This document shows, piece by piece, positions 25,573-31,205 of a DNA stretch of 32,299 nt. A program made the translations under genes and the position numbers. The notes beneath the pieces are model-generated. The model was not told the origin of the DNA. It did no database searches and worked only from the letters and a program-made list of their open reading frames with translations. The stretch spans positions 1 to 32,299 of the forward strand of contig WOYY01000049.1 in NCBI GenBank assembly GCA_011620555.1. The letters run 5' to 3'. The first letter of the stretch is position 1, and each line of letters begins with the position of its first letter. Origin of the DNA: Anaerolineaceae bacterium. GTDB lineage: Bacteria > Chloroflexota > Anaerolineae > Anaerolineales > Anaerolineaceae.

Positions 25573-25941
25573 ATGCGTGCAGGAAGAATCATTGCTTTCA
25601 TAACGGCTGCCGTCTTCATCATCTTCGGATTCTTGTTCATTCTGGGCGCTTTCAGTCCGGAAGGCTCTCCGAGCTGGATCTTTGTCGGCATCGTCGGCAT
25701 GGTGATCGGCTTCGTGCTGATCTTTGTCGGCACCAAGCTTTCCCCGCCCCAAAAGGCCGGCGACCAGGTCGTCAACCTGCAGGTTGACCTGCCCAGCGAC
25801 GTGAGCATGGATACGATCAAATGCAAGTCCTGCGGCGCGCCTTTGAAGGCCGAGGACATCAAAATGGTCGCTGGCGCACCGGTGGTTGAATGCCCGAACT
25901 GCGGCACGACCTACCAGCTGACAGAAGAACCAAAGTGGTGA
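25573..25941 (+). CDS. Two-TM membrane protein with C-terminal zinc ribbon
   Basis: The 122-residue protein has two TM helices (about 5-27 and 35-56) and a cytoplasmic zinc ribbon with C84/C87 ('CKSCG') and C107/C110 ('CPNCG'). GGAGG precedes ATG 25573 by four bases. Its stop lies four bases before the Cys-Ala-tail gene, so it opens the operon that leads to the radical SAM genes. The function is unknown. A metal or partner-binding role at the membrane is a guess. Confidence 0.85.
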   Translation: MRAGRIIAFITAAVFIIFGFLFILGAFSPEGSPSWIFVGIVGMVIGFVLIFVGTKLSPPQKAGDQVVNLQVDLPSDVSMDTIKCKSCGAPLKAEDIKMVAGAPVVECPNCGTTYQLTEEPKW

Positions 25942-25945
25942 AATA

Positions 25946-27700
25946 ATGAAGAAACTTAAGATCATCCTTCTCATCATCGTTCTGTTGGGGGTGTTCGCCC
26001 TGCCAGCCACGTCGGTTTCGGCGCAGGACTATGCCTTCACCCTCACCTCAATGGAAGTTGAAGCTTACATTGAAGAGGATGGTACGCTTTCCCTCTGGTA
26101 TCTGTTGGAGTTCCAGAACCTGCCTTCGGGCGCTCCGATCGAATTTGTGGATATCGGGATGCCCTCCTCTTCCTACAGCCGCAGCGCCGTCCAGGCAGAG
26201 GTTGACGGCGTCGCAATCGAAAAGGTGGAAAGTTCCCCCTATGTGCCGAATGGCTTTGCCCTGAACCTGGAAGACAATGCCATCCAACCGGGCCAATCCG
26301 GCACGGTCACGGCCTGGATCACGGGCGTGGAAGATGTGGTGACTCCCTATGACAACGGCGACCGGGAAAACTATGCCAATTTCCAGTTCAGCCCGAACTG
26401 GTTCGATTCGCAATATGATAAGAGCAGCAACACCGCCTACCGGGTGACCATCATCCTCCCGCCAGGCGTTGGCAGCGAGGAAGGGGTTTATTATTACCCC
26501 TCCAACTGGCCGGGGGATGACACGCCTGACGACATCGGCCGGACCGCCGCTGAAGACCGGGTCTACTATTCCTGGTATGCCGCAAACGCCGATGCGCACA
26601 CCCAATACACCTTCGGCGTCGCTTTCCCGAATCAATATATCCCGGAACAGTCAGTGGTCCAGACCATTCCCATGAACGACACGCCCTCCTCATCCGGCGG
26701 ATCGAACGGGATTCTCACCGCCCTGAGTGGGAATGTCTGCTGCTTTGGTTTCGGCCTGTTCTTTGTGGCGATATTCGGCTGGAGCATCTACCAGGGCACC
26801 GTCGGCGCCAAGAAACGCAAGATGAAATATCTGCCGCCCAAGATGAAGATTGAGGGCCACGGCATTAAGCGCGGGCTGACGGCGGTTGAGGCCGCCATTC
26901 TGATGGAGCAGCCGATGGATAAGGTCATGACCATGATCCTCTTCGGTGCGCTCAAAAAAGAAGCGGCAATCGTGGAGCAGTCCGACCCGCTGAAACTGAC
27001 CGTCACCGACCCCCTGCCCGAAGGCTTGCAACAATATGAAATCGACTTCCTGAACGCCTTCAAAGAATCAGATGCCAAGCGCCGGACCGCCCTGCAAAAG
27101 ATGATGGTGGATCTGGTGAACAGCGTCTCCCAAAAGATGAAAGGCTTCAGCCGCAAAGAAACCATCGCCTATTACGAGGACATCATGCGCCGGGCCTGGA
27201 AGATGGTTGAAGAATCCCAGACTCCCGAGGTCAAGAGCGAAAACTACGACCAGACCCTCGAATGGACGATGCTGGATGACGACTACGCCGAGCGCACCCG
27301 CCAAACCTTCTCGGGCGGCCCGGTCTTCGTGCCGATGTGGTGGCCGCGTTATTCCCCCACCTACCGTCGCAATATCGGCCGGATGAGTCCTGCCACGCCC
27401 TCCATCGGGGGCAATGTTTCAACCGGCGGCCGGTCGAGCAGCAGCGGTTCTCCTTCGCTGCCGCATATCCCCGGCTCTGATTTTGCTGCCGGCGTCGTCA
27501 ACGGCGTCACAGGGATGTCTGCCGGCGTGGTCGGCAACCTGACCTCCTTTACCAATGGCATCACCACCCGCACCAACCCGATCCCCGTTTCCAGCAAGTC
27601 CGGCAGCGGCGGCTTCCGGGGCGGCGGCAGCAGCGGCGGATGCGCCTGCGCCTGTGCTTGCGCCGGTTGCGCCTGCGCCTGTGCCGGTGGCGGCCGCTGA
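25946..27700 (+). CDS. Secreted/anchored membrane protein with Cys-Ala-repeat C-terminal tail (DUF2207-like)
   Basis: The 584-residue protein has a signal peptide (1-26, cut site after 'VSA'), an extracytoplasmic beta-rich domain (about 28-250) and one TM helix (about 262-284, preceded by C265/C266). The basic 'KKRKMK' at 289-294 puts the C-terminus inside. The cytoplasmic part (about 295-450) is helical. Then comes a Gly/Ser-rich stretch ('GGFRGGGSSGG', 555-565) and the tail CACACACAGCACACAGGGR (566-584) with seven Cys. Architecture resembles DUF2207-type membrane proteins, which also end in Gly-rich tails. Cys and Ala codons mix TGC/TGT and GCC/GCT, so the tail is not a simple DNA repeat. 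The next genes encode radical SAM proteins, which suggests the tail is modified. Confidence 0.85.
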   Translation: MKKLKIILLIIVLLGVFALPATSVSAQDYAFTLTSMEVEAYIEEDGTLSLWYLLEFQNLPSGAPIEFVDIGMPSSSYSRSAVQAEVDGVAIEKVESSPYVPNGFALNLEDNAIQPGQSGTVTAWITGVEDVVTPYDNGDRENYANFQFSPNWFDSQYDKSSNTAYRVTIILPPGVGSEEGVYYYPSNWPGDDTPDDIGRTAAEDRVYYSWYAANADAHTQYTFGVAFPNQYIPEQSVVQTIPMNDTPSSSGGSNGILTALSGNVCCFGFGLFFVAIFGWSIYQGTVGAKKRKMKYLPPKMKIEGHGIKRGLTAVEAAILMEQPMDKVMTMILFGALKKEAAIVEQSDPLKLTVTDPLPEGLQQYEIDFLNAFKESDAKRRTALQKMMVDLVNSVSQKMKGFSRKETIAYYEDIMRRAWKMVEESQTPEVKSENYDQTLEWTMLDDDYAERTRQTFSGGPVFVPMWWPRYSPTYRRNIGRMSPATPSIGGNVSTGGRSSSSGSPSLPHIPGSDFAAGVVNGVTGMSAGVVGNLTSFTNGITTRTNPIPVSSKSGSGGFRGGGSSGGCACACACAGCACACAGGGR

Positions 27701-27718
27701 ACCTGATCCCAACCTATC

Positions 27719-27745
27719 GCTCCTGGCGTCAATTGCGCCAGGAGC
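27719..27745 (+). promoter_or_regulatory. Perfect hairpin between tail gene and radical SAM gene, covering the ribosome site
   Basis: GCTCCTGGCG (27719-27728) and CGCCAGGAGC (27736-27745) form a 10-bp perfect stem with a 7-nt loop. The only AGGAG before ATG 27758 (27740-27744) lies in the 3' arm. No T-run follows, so it is a poor terminator. It could lower translation or set transcript ends between the putative substrate gene and its maturase. Confidence 0.7.
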
Positions 27746-27757
27746 CTCTCAATCCTT

Positions 27758-29134
27758 ATGAAACCTTCAAACACGCTTACCGGTAAACTGACCAAGATTT
27801 TCCAACGTCCCCCTTCGCCCAAGACCGGGCTGTATCATTACCGGCGGGAAAGCAAAGCTGAAAAGACGCGCATCCACCTCCGGATCGACCCGGACGGGCG
27901 CGGTCTGCTGATCGTCAACGCCAACCGGGTGGTGCACCTCAACCCCTCAGCGGCAGCGATGGCTTTCTATCATCTGGAAGGCCTCACGCCGGAATCTGCA
28001 TCCCGAGCCTTGCAGCGGGAATACAGCGTCTCTTCCAAAGATGCCCAGAACGACTTCCTGGACTTCATCAACCAACTGGAGGATCTGCTGCGGCCGGATG
28101 GCGCCTGCCCGGTCTGTGAGCTGGACCTGGAAACCACGGCGCCTTTCAGCGCCAAGCCCAGCGCCCCCTACCGAATGGACCTGGCGATCACCTACCGCTG
28201 CAACAATAATTGCAGCCATTGTTACAACGCCCGCTCCCGCCATTACCCTGAGTTGAGCCTGGAGGAATGGAAGCGGGTCATCGACCGAGTTTGGGACCAG
28301 CGCATTCCCCACATCGTCTTCACCGGCGGGGAGCCCACGCTCTACCCCCACCTGCCGGAACTGGTGGCCTATGCCGAACAGCAGGGCGTCATCACCGGGC
28401 TGAACACCAACGGCCGCAAATTGGCAGACCCGGCTTTCGTCCAGGCGCTGGTGGATGCCGGTTTGGATCATGTCCAGATCACGCTCGAATCGCACGACCC
28501 GACTATCCATGACAAAATGGTAGCCGCCAAAGGTGCCTGGGCAGAGACGGTCGCCGGCGTGCGCAATGTGGTGGCTTCGCCGCTCTACGTGATGACCAAT
28601 ACCACCCTGCTCACCCACAACAGCCCCACCGTCAAAGAAACCCTCCATTTCCTCGGCGAACTGGGCGTCCCCACAGTCGGCCTGAACGCCCTGATCTATT
28701 CGGGCAAGGGCGAAGAGGTTGAGACCGGCCTGCCGGAAGAGGACCTGCCCCCTCTGCTGGAAACCGCCCGCGAGATCACGCAGGCCCAGGGGCAGCGCCT
28801 GATCTGGTACACCCCCACCCAATATTGCCACTTCAACCCCCTGCAGCTGGACCTGGGCGTCAAAGGCTGCACGGCGGCGCTCTATAATATGTGCATCGAG
28901 CCCAATGGCGACGTGATCCCCTGCCAATCCTATTACCAGTCTCTGGGCAATATGCTGCAGGACCCCTGGCAAGCCATCTGGGAAAATCCCCTGGCGCTCT
29001 CGCTCCGCAACCGGAGCGTCGTGCCCGAAGGCTGCCTCACCTGCGAGTTCCTCCCGGAATGTGGCGGCGGATGTCCCCTGGCAAGAAAACACCAAACGAT
29101 CCATCCCATCCAGAATCCCATTTTTTCCAATTGA
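27758..29134 (+). CDS. Radical SAM/SPASM protein with N-terminal PqqD-like (RRE) domain
   Basis: The 458-residue protein joins three parts. Residues about 38-112 look like a PqqD-type RiPP recognition element ('RIDPDGRGLLIVNANRVVHLN', 'AAAMAFYHLEGLTPES'). A CPVC pair follows at 117-120. The radical SAM core has the cluster motif C148xxxC152xxC155 ('YRCNNNCSHCYN') and 'FTGGEPTLYP' (190-193 GGEP). A SPASM domain has C371-X12-G384-X4-C389, then C426-X2-C429-X5-C435-X3-C439, the canonical spacing. The final single SPASM Cys is not seen. Enzymes of this plan form thioether or other links in RiPP precursors. The adjacent Cys-Ala tail is the obvious candidate substrate. Confidence 0.92.
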   Translation: MKPSNTLTGKLTKIFQRPPSPKTGLYHYRRESKAEKTRIHLRIDPDGRGLLIVNANRVVHLNPSAAAMAFYHLEGLTPESASRALQREYSVSSKDAQNDFLDFINQLEDLLRPDGACPVCELDLETTAPFSAKPSAPYRMDLAITYRCNNNCSHCYNARSRHYPELSLEEWKRVIDRVWDQRIPHIVFTGGEPTLYPHLPELVAYAEQQGVITGLNTNGRKLADPAFVQALVDAGLDHVQITLESHDPTIHDKMVAAKGAWAETVAGVRNVVASPLYVMTNTTLLTHNSPTVKETLHFLGELGVPTVGLNALIYSGKGEEVETGLPEEDLPPLLETAREITQAQGQRLIWYTPTQYCHFNPLQLDLGVKGCTAALYNMCIEPNGDVIPCQSYYQSLGNMLQDPWQAIWENPLALSLRNRSVVPEGCLTCEFLPECGGGCPLARKHQTIHPIQNPIFSN

Positions 29135-29144
29135 ACGGAGCGAT

Positions 29145-30299
29145 ATGGCCAATCTCTTTCAATCTGTCAAGCAACTTTTCTCTGATAAGAAACCCCTCCC
29201 GGCCGGCATGTACAGCTACCAGGCGCCAGCCAGTGAGGAAGCCCCCTACCGGCTGCACCTCCGGATTGAAGCGGACGGCAGCGGAATTCTGGTGATCAAC
29301 GCCTCCACCATCCTGCACCTCAACCAGACGGCGGTCGAGTATGCCTACCACATCATCAAAGGCACGCCCCTGGCGGAAGTGGCCGCGGAGGTCGCCAAGC
29401 GCTATCAGGTGGACCCCGAGCAGGCCCGGCAGGATTTTGAAGCCCTCCAGGAGCAGATCGAAACCCTGATCCATACGCCGGACCTCGACCCCGTCATGTA
29501 CCTCGGCCTGGAACGCATTGACCCCTATCAGACCGAAATCTCCGCCCCCTACCGGCTGGATTGCGCCCTGACCTACCGGGTGGACGGCGACAGCCTGCAA
29601 AGCGCCGCGCCGCAGGAGCGGGTAGCGCGGGAACTGAGCACTGAAGAATGGAAAACCATCCTCCACAAGGCCTTTAAAGCCGGCATTCCCCACCTGCTCT
29701 TCACCGGCGGCGAGCCGACTCTGCGGGAAGACCTGGCGGAGATCCTCCAGGAAGCGGAAGACCTGGGTCTGGTCACCGGCCTGCTCTCGGCCGGCCTCAA
29801 ACTCGGGAATCAGGCTTATCTGGAAAGCCTCCTCGCGAGCGGTCTGGACCATTTCATGATGGTCTTTGACCCGGAGGACGAGCGGGACTGGCAGGTGCTG
29901 GAAACCGTCCTGCCCGAGGACCTCTTCACCACCGTCCACCTGACCCTCAGGAATGGGGACGACCTCCAGCCGGTGATCCGCCGGCTGGCCGAAGTGGGCG
30001 CCAACGCCATCTCCTTGAGCGCCGTGGACCCCGCCCTGGCGGATAAACTGCAAGCGCTGCGGGATTACGCGGCCGTGCAGCAGCTTGAACTGGTTTGGGA
30101 CCTGCCGGTGCCCTATTCCAGCAATAACCCGGTCTCTCTGGAACTGGAACAGAGCAGCGAAGGCGCAGCCAGTGCGGGAGCGGGCAAAGCCTGGCTCTAC
30201 GTGGAACCGGATGGCGATGTGCTCCCCGCCCAAGGGCTTTCCGACCAGGTCCTCGGTAACCTGCTGACCGATGAATGGGAGCAGATCTGGTCCAAATGA
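29145..30299 (+). CDS. Degenerate radical SAM paralogue (pseudo-enzyme) with PqqD-like domain
   Basis: The 384-residue protein aligns along its length with the preceding protein: PqqD-like part ('RIEADGSGILVINASTILHLN', about 40-110), 'FTGGEPTL' (187-194) and 'VEPDGDVLP' near the end. The cluster cysteines are replaced without gaps by V146, S150 and S153 ('TYRVDGDSLQS' in place of 'TYRCNNNCSHC'). The matching SPASM residues are also lost, and the chain stops at 'EQIWSK', where the paralogue continues into its SPASM CxxC. Only one Cys (C140) remains. The frame is intact, so it is a maintained pseudo-enzyme, not an obvious pseudogene. ATG 29145 has CGGAG upstream, 10 bases after the previous stop. 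An adaptor role is inferred. Confidence 0.85.
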   Translation: MANLFQSVKQLFSDKKPLPAGMYSYQAPASEEAPYRLHLRIEADGSGILVINASTILHLNQTAVEYAYHIIKGTPLAEVAAEVAKRYQVDPEQARQDFEALQEQIETLIHTPDLDPVMYLGLERIDPYQTEISAPYRLDCALTYRVDGDSLQSAAPQERVARELSTEEWKTILHKAFKAGIPHLLFTGGEPTLREDLAEILQEAEDLGLVTGLLSAGLKLGNQAYLESLLASGLDHFMMVFDPEDERDWQVLETVLPEDLFTTVHLTLRNGDDLQPVIRRLAEVGANAISLSAVDPALADKLQALRDYAAVQQLELVWDLPVPYSSNNPVSLELEQSSEGAASAGAGKAWLYVEPDGDVLPAQGLSDQVLGNLLTDEWEQIWSK

Positions 30300-31063
30300 A
30301 ATCGGGCCAAGGACAGCTGACCCTCACCGAATGGCACGCGCGCTTCACCCAGCAGGCCGGCTGGACCGCTGAGATCCGCCGGCACCTCTTTGACCAGGCC
30401 GGGCTGAAGCCAGGCAGCCAAGTGTTGGAAGTGGGCTGCGGAACCGGCGCCGTGCTAAACGCCATTGCTGAAGAGACTGACTATCACCTGACTGGGGTGG
30501 ACATTGACCGCCCCAGTTTGCAATTTAATCACACTCAACTCCCCCCTTTCCCGTTAACCCAGGCGGACGGTCACAGCCTCCCTTTTGCCGATAAGGCCTT
30601 TGACGCGGTCTACTGCCACTACCTGCTGCTCTGGGTCGCGGACCCCGCCCGGGTGCTGGCCGAGATGCGCCGTGTGACCCGCCCCGGTGGGGTGGTGATC
30701 GCCCTGGCCGAGCCGGACTACGCTGGCAGAATTGATTCTCCGCCCCCTCTGGATGAGCTGGGCCGGCTGCAGACCAAGGCCCTGGCGCGGCAGGGTGCGG
30801 ACGTTGAAATCGGCCGCAAATTGGAGCAGCTGTTCATAAGCGCAGGGCTGGTCAATATCTTTTGCGGGCAGCTCACCGCGCGGGCTGACCAACCGGAAAC
30901 TATGGACCCCCTAGAAAAAGCCGTGCTGAAATCCGATCTAGCGGGTGGTCTCACCGCCGCGGAAGTGGACCACTATCTCAAAATCGACGAAACAGCCCGC
31001 TCCCAAAACCGGCGGAAAATGTCCATCCCGACCTTCCATGCCATCGCCTGGGTAAGCCCCTAG
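30296..31063 (+). CDS. Class I SAM-dependent methyltransferase
   Basis: The 255-residue protein has the Rossmann methyltransferase signature 'VLEVGCGTGAVL' (about 46-57), acidic 'GVDID', 'FDAVYCHYLLLWVADPARVLAEM' and 'TRPGGVVIALAEP'. It starts in the overlap ATGA (30296-30299) with the pseudo-radical SAM gene, so the two are translationally coupled. A longer in-frame start at 30275 is less likely. The substrate is unknown; the coupling suggests a role in the same modification system, but it could be an unrelated enzyme riding in the operon. Confidence 0.85.
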   Translation: MKSGQGQLTLTEWHARFTQQAGWTAEIRRHLFDQAGLKPGSQVLEVGCGTGAVLNAIAEETDYHLTGVDIDRPSLQFNHTQLPPFPLTQADGHSLPFADKAFDAVYCHYLLLWVADPARVLAEMRRVTRPGGVVIALAEPDYAGRIDSPPPLDELGRLQTKALARQGADVEIGRKLEQLFISAGLVNIFCGQLTARADQPETMDPLEKAVLKSDLAGGLTAAEVDHYLKIDETARSQNRRKMSIPTFHAIAWVSP

Positions 31064-31124: not shown

Positions 31125-31199
31125 CGGGGCGTGGCGCAGTCCGGCTAGCGCGCTTGCATGGGGTGTAAGAGGCCCTGGGTTCAAATCCCAGCGCCCCGA
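31125..31199 (+). tRNA. tRNA-Pro(GGG)
   Basis: The 75-nt cloverleaf has acceptor CGGGGCG / CGCCCCG with discriminator A, D stem GCGC/GCGC, and anticodon stem CTTGC/GTAAG with loop ATGGGGT. The anticodon is GGG (reads CCC/CCU). T arm is CTGGG-TTCAAAT-CCCAG. CCA is not encoded. C1-G72 and A73 fit bacterial tRNA-Pro. Confidence 0.95.
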
Positions 31200-31205
31200 C
31201 TTTAG

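Follow-up and report, generated by a model that had tools for sequence, protein, structure and literature searches.

A conserved cysteine-alanine tail on a membrane protein is the probable substrate of the radical SAM-SPASM enzyme encoded beside it in bacteria and Asgard archaea

What does a radical S-adenosylmethionine (SAM) enzyme act upon when it carries a recognition element (RRE) typical of the ribosomally synthesized and post-translationally modified peptides (RiPPs), and its operon leaves no room for a precursor peptide? This question is raised by five co-oriented genes on the + strand, at positions 25573-31063 of a 32,299-nucleotide stretch (hereafter the window) of contig WOYY01000049.1 from an Anaerolineaceae bacterium (assembly GCA_011620555.1). 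They encode a zinc-ribbon protein (protein 1, ZNR), a membrane protein ending in alternating Cys and Ala (protein 2, MEM), a radical SAM enzyme (protein 3, rSAM-A), a degenerate paralogue of the latter (protein 4, pseudo-rSAM) and a methyltransferase (protein 5, MT). The intergenic gaps of 4, 57 and 10 bases, followed by an ATGA overlap (30296-30299), could not accommodate a separate short precursor gene inside the operon, a negative that covers the operon and not its flanks. RiPP discovery usually targets short precursor peptides and so readily misses a coded tail that sits on a full-size membrane protein. From the observed anatomy of the locus, and from the conservation of the tail together with its co-occurrence, linkage and co-divergence with the enzyme, we infer with a probability of roughly 0.8 that the MEM tail serves as substrate for the dedicated RRE-radical SAM-SPASM enzyme of its own operon. 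The near-universal pairing of tail and enzyme in the sampled genomes indicates that the tail is probably modified while attached to the protein.

MEM (25946-27700, + strand; 584 residues) consists, in order, of a signal peptide, an ectodomain (residues 28-230), one transmembrane (TM) helix within residues 254-294, a KKRK motif, a cytosolic domain (approximately 301-478), a Gly/Ser linker and the tail CACACACAGCACACAGGGR. Its C-terminus reads GGCACACACAGCACACAGGGR, in which the proposed substrate segment GG-(CA)4-G-(CA)3-GGGR and the stop codon occupy positions 27635-27700 of the + strand. Seven Cys lie in the tail, at residues 566-579, and the only others in the protein are those at 265 and 266. 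As the TM helix is followed by KKRK, the remainder of the protein, tail included, should be cytosolic, and the tail is accordingly predicted to face the cytosol. A DNA pattern for Cys-Ala-Cys-Ala-Cys-(Ala) occurred three times in the window, always within the MEM tail, and in none of 100 shuffles; it had no further occurrence elsewhere in the assembly.

The conservation of the tail was assessed in a first sample of 301 Chloroflexota genomes, the window's own included, searched with MEM and without any condition on the tail. MEM was found in 20 of them (in G232 as a gene split into two pieces), and in all 20 the last 17 residues CACACAGCACACAGGGR were identical. They were encoded by 20 distinct DNA sequences, which rules out a DNA repeat artefact; the comparison thus establishes the tail as real and conserved at the protein level. 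The tail DNA pattern was present in the same 20 genomes and at one place in G173, where the match was spurious, lying inside an unlikely frame and not at its end. Across 40 diverse members the 17 tail residues were invariant, Ala, Gly and terminal Arg to the same degree as Cys, at a mean column identity of 37% over the whole protein and with few invariant columns outside the tail.

A second, motif-led scan, in which each species was represented by one genome, yielded at least 118 stretches among the matches listed, with a pattern that by design fixes 11 tail residues and leaves the earlier CA units, the last Gly and the Arg free; at least six of these (L063, L064, L071, L090, L110 and L128) came from the same genomes as the 20 above. 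A reading frame bore the motif in 117 of the 118 listed stretches, the exception being L093, where the match lay at a contig end, and in all 117 the motif was the C-terminal end of the frame (GGGR in 116, GGGGGR in one). The general form is (CA)3-5-G-(CA)3-GGGR-COOH: three, four or five CA units preceded the Gly in 19, 79 and 19 of the listed frames, respectively, and three always followed it. Listed bacterial carriers comprise Anaerolineae, a Herpetosiphon metagenome-assembled genome (MAG), Aminicenantes, an acidobacteriote, Zixibacteria, Coatesbacteria, Sabulitectum/Fermentibacteraceae, Edwardsbacteria and a Cloacimonadota MAG, and the listed archaeal ones belong to the Hodarch-, Heimdall-, Loki- and Sigynarchaeota. 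The Asgard variants include CACACACACAGGGR and CACACACVSCACACAGGGR. This first tail code, as read from these sequences, is common to bacteria and Asgard archaea nearly letter for letter. One Chloroflexia MAG (Zod_Metabat.323; L056 and L079) has the tailed protein on two contigs.

A viral origin was also considered and rejected: the pattern CACACAGGG matched four viral contigs, in three of which the frames look spurious by eye. The remaining one, L148, holds a frame cut by the contig edge with the C-terminus GGGCACACAGGGR, and no radical enzyme was seen by eye among the frames of the 6 kb examined. This frame (L148:5859-6152), whose start is lost at the contig edge, ends in GGGGGGGGCACACAGGGR.

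The partner enzyme rSAM-A (27758-29134, + strand) combines a PqqD-like domain, the putative RRE (PF05402, residues 52-109; 27.5 bits, cut-off 23.4), a radical SAM domain (PF04055, 99.6 bits) and a SPASM domain (PF13186; 33.6 bits, cut-off 21.5). Its CxxxCxxC motif (C148, C152 and C155) was invariant in all 29 aligned enzymes. A further Cys set (C371-x12-G-x4-C389 and C426-x2-C429-x5-C435-x3-C439) we take to be that of the SPASM domain; the final SPASM-region Cys of many members from outside the Chloroflexota is absent from the window's enzyme. Outside the radical SAM and SPASM motifs stands C357 (TPTQYC, window 28826-28828), likewise invariant in 29 of 29, which is possibly an extra cluster ligand or a hydrogen-atom donor. 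Against the named NCBIfam radical SAM families, rSAM-A fell below the cut-off in all 25 best rows (the top one, TIGR04055, at 132.8 versus 500 bits), and its nearest solved structures were PqqE (6c8v, 1e-16), SkfB (6efn, 1.3e-15) and the radical SAM protein 5v1q (3e-11), presumably CteB.

Tail and enzyme proved almost inseparable across genomes. rSAM-A (E below 1e-190) occurred in exactly the 20 Chloroflexota genomes that contain MEM and in none of the other 281 (Fisher 1.2e-31, shared ancestry ignored). Six genomes from the two families of the carriers (G176, G046, G055, G080, G096 and G120) had neither, so that joint absence extends even within genera (g6, g8 and g9); in G096 the pseudo-enzyme alone is retained. 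The third sample comprised 129 genomes of the archaeal kingdom Promethearchaeati, all from the phylum to which G301 belongs, G301 being the genome that contains the Sigynarchaeota locus L046. Here MEM with the Cys-Ala tail (CACA class) was found in 25, rSAM-A in 28 and both in 24 (Fisher 6.7e-21, shared ancestry likewise ignored). Classes in this Asgard sample were assigned by E-value and by tail: for 20 of the 25 genomes the tail letters were read, in G329 and G358 the tail was pattern-matched, the profile match in G330 reaches the tail end without its letters having been read, and G320 and G417 showed the N-terminal part alone and no tail pattern, the enzyme of G320 being a fragment placed in clade A.

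Physical linkage points the same way. An intact CxxxCxxC homologue lay within 1 kb on the same strand at 96 of the 117 listed tail loci. The other 21 include stretches ending or masked in or before the enzyme (among them L049, L050, L077, L083, L088, L132 and L136), and at some of them the pseudo-enzyme is the sole adjacent one. Whole-genome searches for 11 of these 21 recovered an orthologue every time (E 4.5e-162 to 2.7e-218), on another contig in eight (L045, L046, L061, L062, L079, L085, L100 and L130) and on that of the tail in three: at L096 it directly adjoins the tail gene past the end of the locus, at L143 it follows some 2.5 kb downstream, and at L094 it lies on the opposite strand at a distance of some 3 kb. 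Stops reported in the enzyme of G255 proved to lie beyond its C-terminus, so that this enzyme is intact. Distances between MEM bodies and between their enzymes were correlated (r 0.90 over 57 loci; as high in 0 of 2000 permutations).

These results speak directly to the first-pass annotation of the window, made from its letters alone, which had proposed the tail as the radical enzyme's substrate and had named co-occurrence in related genomes as a check. The 20 of 20 against 0 of 281 Chloroflexota genomes and the 24 of 25 Asgard-sample carriers favour that proposal, as do the 96 of 117 listed loci with the enzyme close by; the opposite outcome, in which most genomes would encode homologous proteins with the same tail but lack a neighbouring radical enzyme, was not observed. 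Its description of the locus held as well: five same-direction genes with the gaps and overlap given above, a 584-residue membrane protein with seven tail Cys in Cys-Ala repeats, PqqD-like, radical SAM and SPASM domains in protein 3 (all above Pfam cut-offs), a degenerate paralogue and a methyltransferase. For protein 1, two TM helices were again seen by eye, and the zinc ribbon was matched in Pfam below cut-off only.

A second tail code adds a further pairing. CHSAC-repeat tails, ending in GG[FY]R in the Asgard members, were found on a homologous membrane protein (MEM-B) in 18 of the 129 Asgard-sample genomes, all 18 of them read; the bodies of MEM and MEM-B are homologous (hhalign 99.9%, E 1e-32). 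A second enzyme clade, rSAM-B (E 2.8e-87 to 3.2e-113), occurred in 19 genomes of that sample, including 17 of the 18 with MEM-B (Fisher 4.3e-18), and no genome of the sample combined the CACA and CHSAC types. Two Chloroflexota (G011 and G136), which came up without a dedicated CHSAC scan, have CHSAC tails with different ends directly adjoining an enzyme of the second kind, and G011 additionally carries the CACA system. Tail type thus predicts enzyme clade, which counts against mere association. Near the radical enzyme at four Asgard CHSAC loci (L273-L276) we further observed a D-threonine aldolase/D-serine dehydratase-like gene (by eye), a zinc-ribbon membrane protein and a small conserved protein; in G422, MEM-B is represented by a 96-residue frame (L274:2984-3271) adjoining a recombinase-like frame (by eye).

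A natural control is provided by G255, which possesses a tailless MEM paralogue (L150; 238 residues, a TM helix and a cytosolic domain) adjoining its own zinc-ribbon gene, about 22 kb from the tailed system on the same contig. Neither a radical enzyme nor a methyltransferase of this type was seen among the frames of at least 100 residues in the 13 kb read at this locus, which suggests, from gene content, that ZNR and the MEM body form one unit and the tail and radical enzyme another. Related parts recur in other settings. In some Chloroflexota (loci L041, L048, L122, L189 and L191) the radical enzyme bears a C-terminal extension of its own, GGGCSGCSGSCGTGG, close to a tailless protein of 300-340 residues resembling the MEM cytosolic domain, with tailed MEM and pseudo-enzyme nearby or on a separate contig. 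The 900-residue frame L024 (G200:C13:301751-305395) joins a Ser/Thr kinase-like part, a TM helix, a MEM-like ectodomain and a formylglycine-generating-enzyme-like domain (non-MEM parts by eye), its ectodomain being 50% identical to MEM residues 27-244 and reused without the tail.

Of the remaining operon genes, pseudo-rSAM (29145-30299, + strand), 31% identical to rSAM-A over 409 columns, matches the PqqD and Radical_SAM models above the Pfam cut-offs and keeps the RRE, yet has lost CxxxCxxC and every cluster Cys, its single Cys being residue 140. MT (30296-31063, + strand) is a SAM-dependent methyltransferase (Methyltransf_11), and ZNR (25573-25941, + strand; 122 residues) would place its zinc ribbon at the C-terminus. 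The occurrence of these partners was counted over 80 listed tail loci, 59 from Chloroflexota and 21 others as sorted by record title, many of them incomplete so that the counts are lower bounds. An intact radical enzyme was seen in at least 51 of the 59 and at least 15 of the 21, a pseudo-rSAM homologue in at least 42 and in none, an MT homologue in at least 25 and at least 11, and ZNR in at least 44 and at least 11, respectively. By these counts the core looks like MEM, radical enzyme and methyltransferase, usually together with ZNR, and the pseudo-enzyme looks like an addition of the Chloroflexota.

In the mechanism that we propose, rSAM-A would bind MEM through its PqqD-like RRE, with the retained RRE of the pseudo-enzyme perhaps helping recognition in many Chloroflexota, and would treat the tail much as a RiPP core peptide, its radical SAM and auxiliary clusters processing the Cys-Ala units one by one; MT may add methyl groups to the tail or to the C-terminal end. 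As the five operon genes include neither a protease nor an exporter and the tail shows hardly any diversification, the product is likely to remain attached, akin to a protein-bound cofactor or a structural knot and not to a released antibiotic. Thioether bonds between Cys sulfur and a carbon of a neighbouring residue are a common outcome for such enzymes on Cys-rich substrates; by analogy they are the chemistry that we favour, at slightly less than even odds, and some other Cys chemistry on the tail is unlikely, though well worth keeping in mind. More tentatively, with the balance tipping a little against it, both tails may belong to one membrane-protein superfamily with coded Cys tails, each turned in place into a fixed structure by its matching radical enzyme, and so to a widespread, built-in modified-peptide cofactor with at least two pairs of code and clade, (CA)nG(CA)3GGGR and CHSAC.

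A variant of the substrate reading, a shade less probable than other Cys chemistry, is that the enzyme is a peptide epimerase converting every second tail residue to the D form without any crosslink. The strict alternation of two residues fits this idea, known radical SAM epimerases yield alternating D,L sequences, and the aldolase/dehydratase-like gene at the four Asgard rSAM-B loci is in keeping with it; however, CHSAC tails have no such alternation, there is no evidence of D residues, and a gene of that kind was not noticed in the Chloroflexota loci read. It is improbable, in turn, that the tail stays unmodified and binds metals or clusters in the manner of the CXC arrays of metallothioneins, the radical enzyme acting elsewhere in the pathway. 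Known metallothioneins do bind soft metals through overlapping CXC motifs, and ZNR resembles zinc ribbons (below cut-off), but metal binding would not need the invariant Ala, Gly and terminal Arg, each tail code is paired with its own enzyme clade, and the tailless paralogue has no such enzyme nearby. Slighter still is the chance that the radical enzyme modifies ZNR or another part of MEM such as its cytosolic domain: ZNR is also a frequent neighbour and the MEM body co-diverges with the enzyme, whereas L150 retains a zinc-ribbon gene and a MEM-like cytosolic domain with no radical enzyme in 13 kb, invariant columns beyond the tail are few, and enzyme clade tracks tail type. Mere association, with an unrelated substrate and genes kept in one horizontally moved operon, would yield co-occurrence of usually adjacent genes but is very improbable, as the enzyme is in the genome even when it sits on another contig (eight of 11 exceptions), in bacteria and archaea alike.

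Several observations nevertheless weigh against the tail as the substrate. Its modification is a prediction from sequence, and an enzyme acting on some other region of MEM would give rise to linkage and co-divergence too. Four Asgard-sample genomes (G345, G352, G364 and G370) have rSAM-A with no MEM or tail pattern detected, and two have rSAM-B without intact MEM-B (G383, with a contig end near the enzyme, and G422, with its short frame); conversely, the enzyme is missing from one genome of each tail type (G329 and G404). The tailless control comes from a single locus, and the motif scan, with at least 118 matches listed, fixed 11 of the tail residues beforehand.

The structure of MEM was also modelled. 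An AlphaFold model (pLDDT 83) places the long TM helix at 254-294 after the signal peptide and leaves the tail unstructured. The modelled ectodomain is beta-rich and gave structural matches to 6ezn_A (Ost1/ribophorin I; Z 16.1, root-mean-square deviation (rmsd) 2.9, 185 aligned), for which sequence comparison gave no match, and M1 aminopeptidase domains at Z of about 12. The cytosolic domain modelled alone (pLDDT 89) gave a weak match to GOLPH3 (3kn1; Z 7.7, rmsd 4.2, 152 aligned) and one to Vps74 (4tu3_A, Z 6.9), and Foldseek with this domain returned nothing at E<=0.001. Searches of Protein Data Bank sequences with MEM profiles were discarded, the best E-values (0.075 and 0.025) belonging to unrelated proteins. 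None of these model-based matches establishes a function. Directly downstream of the operon lies a tRNA-Pro (GGG) gene (window 31125-31200).

If our interpretation is correct, it adds protein-bound radical SAM products conserved across the divide between bacteria and archaea, means that the Asgard archaea possess a conserved system of peptide modification, and provides, in two tails with two enzyme clades, an enzyme-code pair for studying specificity. The system is easily overlooked, the window's MEM lying outside Pfam and NCBIfam models (no match at E<=0.01) and the enzyme outside the named NCBIfam families. It is directly testable, since cultured Anaerolineae carry it: Ornatilinea apprima, Bellilinea caldifistulae, Levilinea saccharolytica, Leptolinea sp. 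HRD-7 and Leptolinea tardivitalis.

In line with the earlier suggestion that the arrangement is undescribed, no description of this tail or operon was found in the open-licence PubMed Central literature, searches by tail letters and CHSAC included (preprints fell outside this scope). Among known systems, the sactisynthase/ranthipeptide-type maturases (SkfB, 6efn; 5v1q) and PqqE (6c8v) share the radical SAM/SPASM core. Their substrates are short peptides, in contrast to the full-size membrane protein proposed here, and rSAM-A falls far below the NCBIfam cut-offs. A study mining radical SAM enzymes reports Asp-Cys repeat peptides, this tail not being among them in the parts of the study covered (PMC9062424).

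The cytosolic domain of MEM seems, on weak scores, distantly related to the TIGR04222 (near_uncomplex) and DUF2207_C domains. Seven of 40 members matched the TIGR04222 model at E<=1 (best 4.5e-5), and a profile of 16 Chloroflexota TIGR04222 hits gave 77% (E 2e-5), compared with 3.9% for the strong member L294 alone; the window's MEM had no match to TIGR04222 at E<=0.01, and one member's score was 17.9 bits against a cut-off of 43. DUF2207_C (PF20990) weakly matched one of 40 whole MEM proteins and two of 40 cytosolic domains, and not the window's MEM. DUF2207 proteins likewise have a Gly-rich C-terminal tail. Fifteen of the 16 Chloroflexota frames found with TIGR04222, most of them weak and probably DUF2207-like, had Gly/Ser-rich tails whose final 60 residues were free of Cys; the exception, L294, carries a Gly-Cys tail, and the Cys-Ala code occurred in none of the 16. 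No MNIO family of Pfam was present in the five operon proteins, the sole proteins scanned.

In the literature searched, the closest idea comes from a proposal in which MNIO enzymes act on Cys-tailed TIGR04222 membrane proteins (PMC12452194). These are also full-size membrane proteins with a Gly/Ser-rich C-terminal Cys segment, thought to be modified as whole proteins; there, however, the enzyme is an MNIO, the tail is predicted to be periplasmic and a third of the TIGR04222 genomes lack an MNIO (PMC12452194), whereas here the enzyme is of the RRE-radical SAM-SPASM type, the tail has a fixed code and is predicted to be cytosolic, and the co-occurrence of tail and enzyme is near complete. The other parallel is QhpD, which makes three Cys thioethers in QhpC, a subunit of quinohemoprotein amine dehydrogenase (PMC7876137). 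QhpC differs from MEM in being small and exported and in having a 28-residue leader that is cleaved off and a protease devoted to that task, whereas MEM sits in the membrane, bears its tail at the C-terminus and has no protease gene in its five-gene operon; still, QhpC offers a precedent in which a radical SAM enzyme and its protein-subunit substrate come from one operon and the product is kept within the enzyme (PMC7876137).

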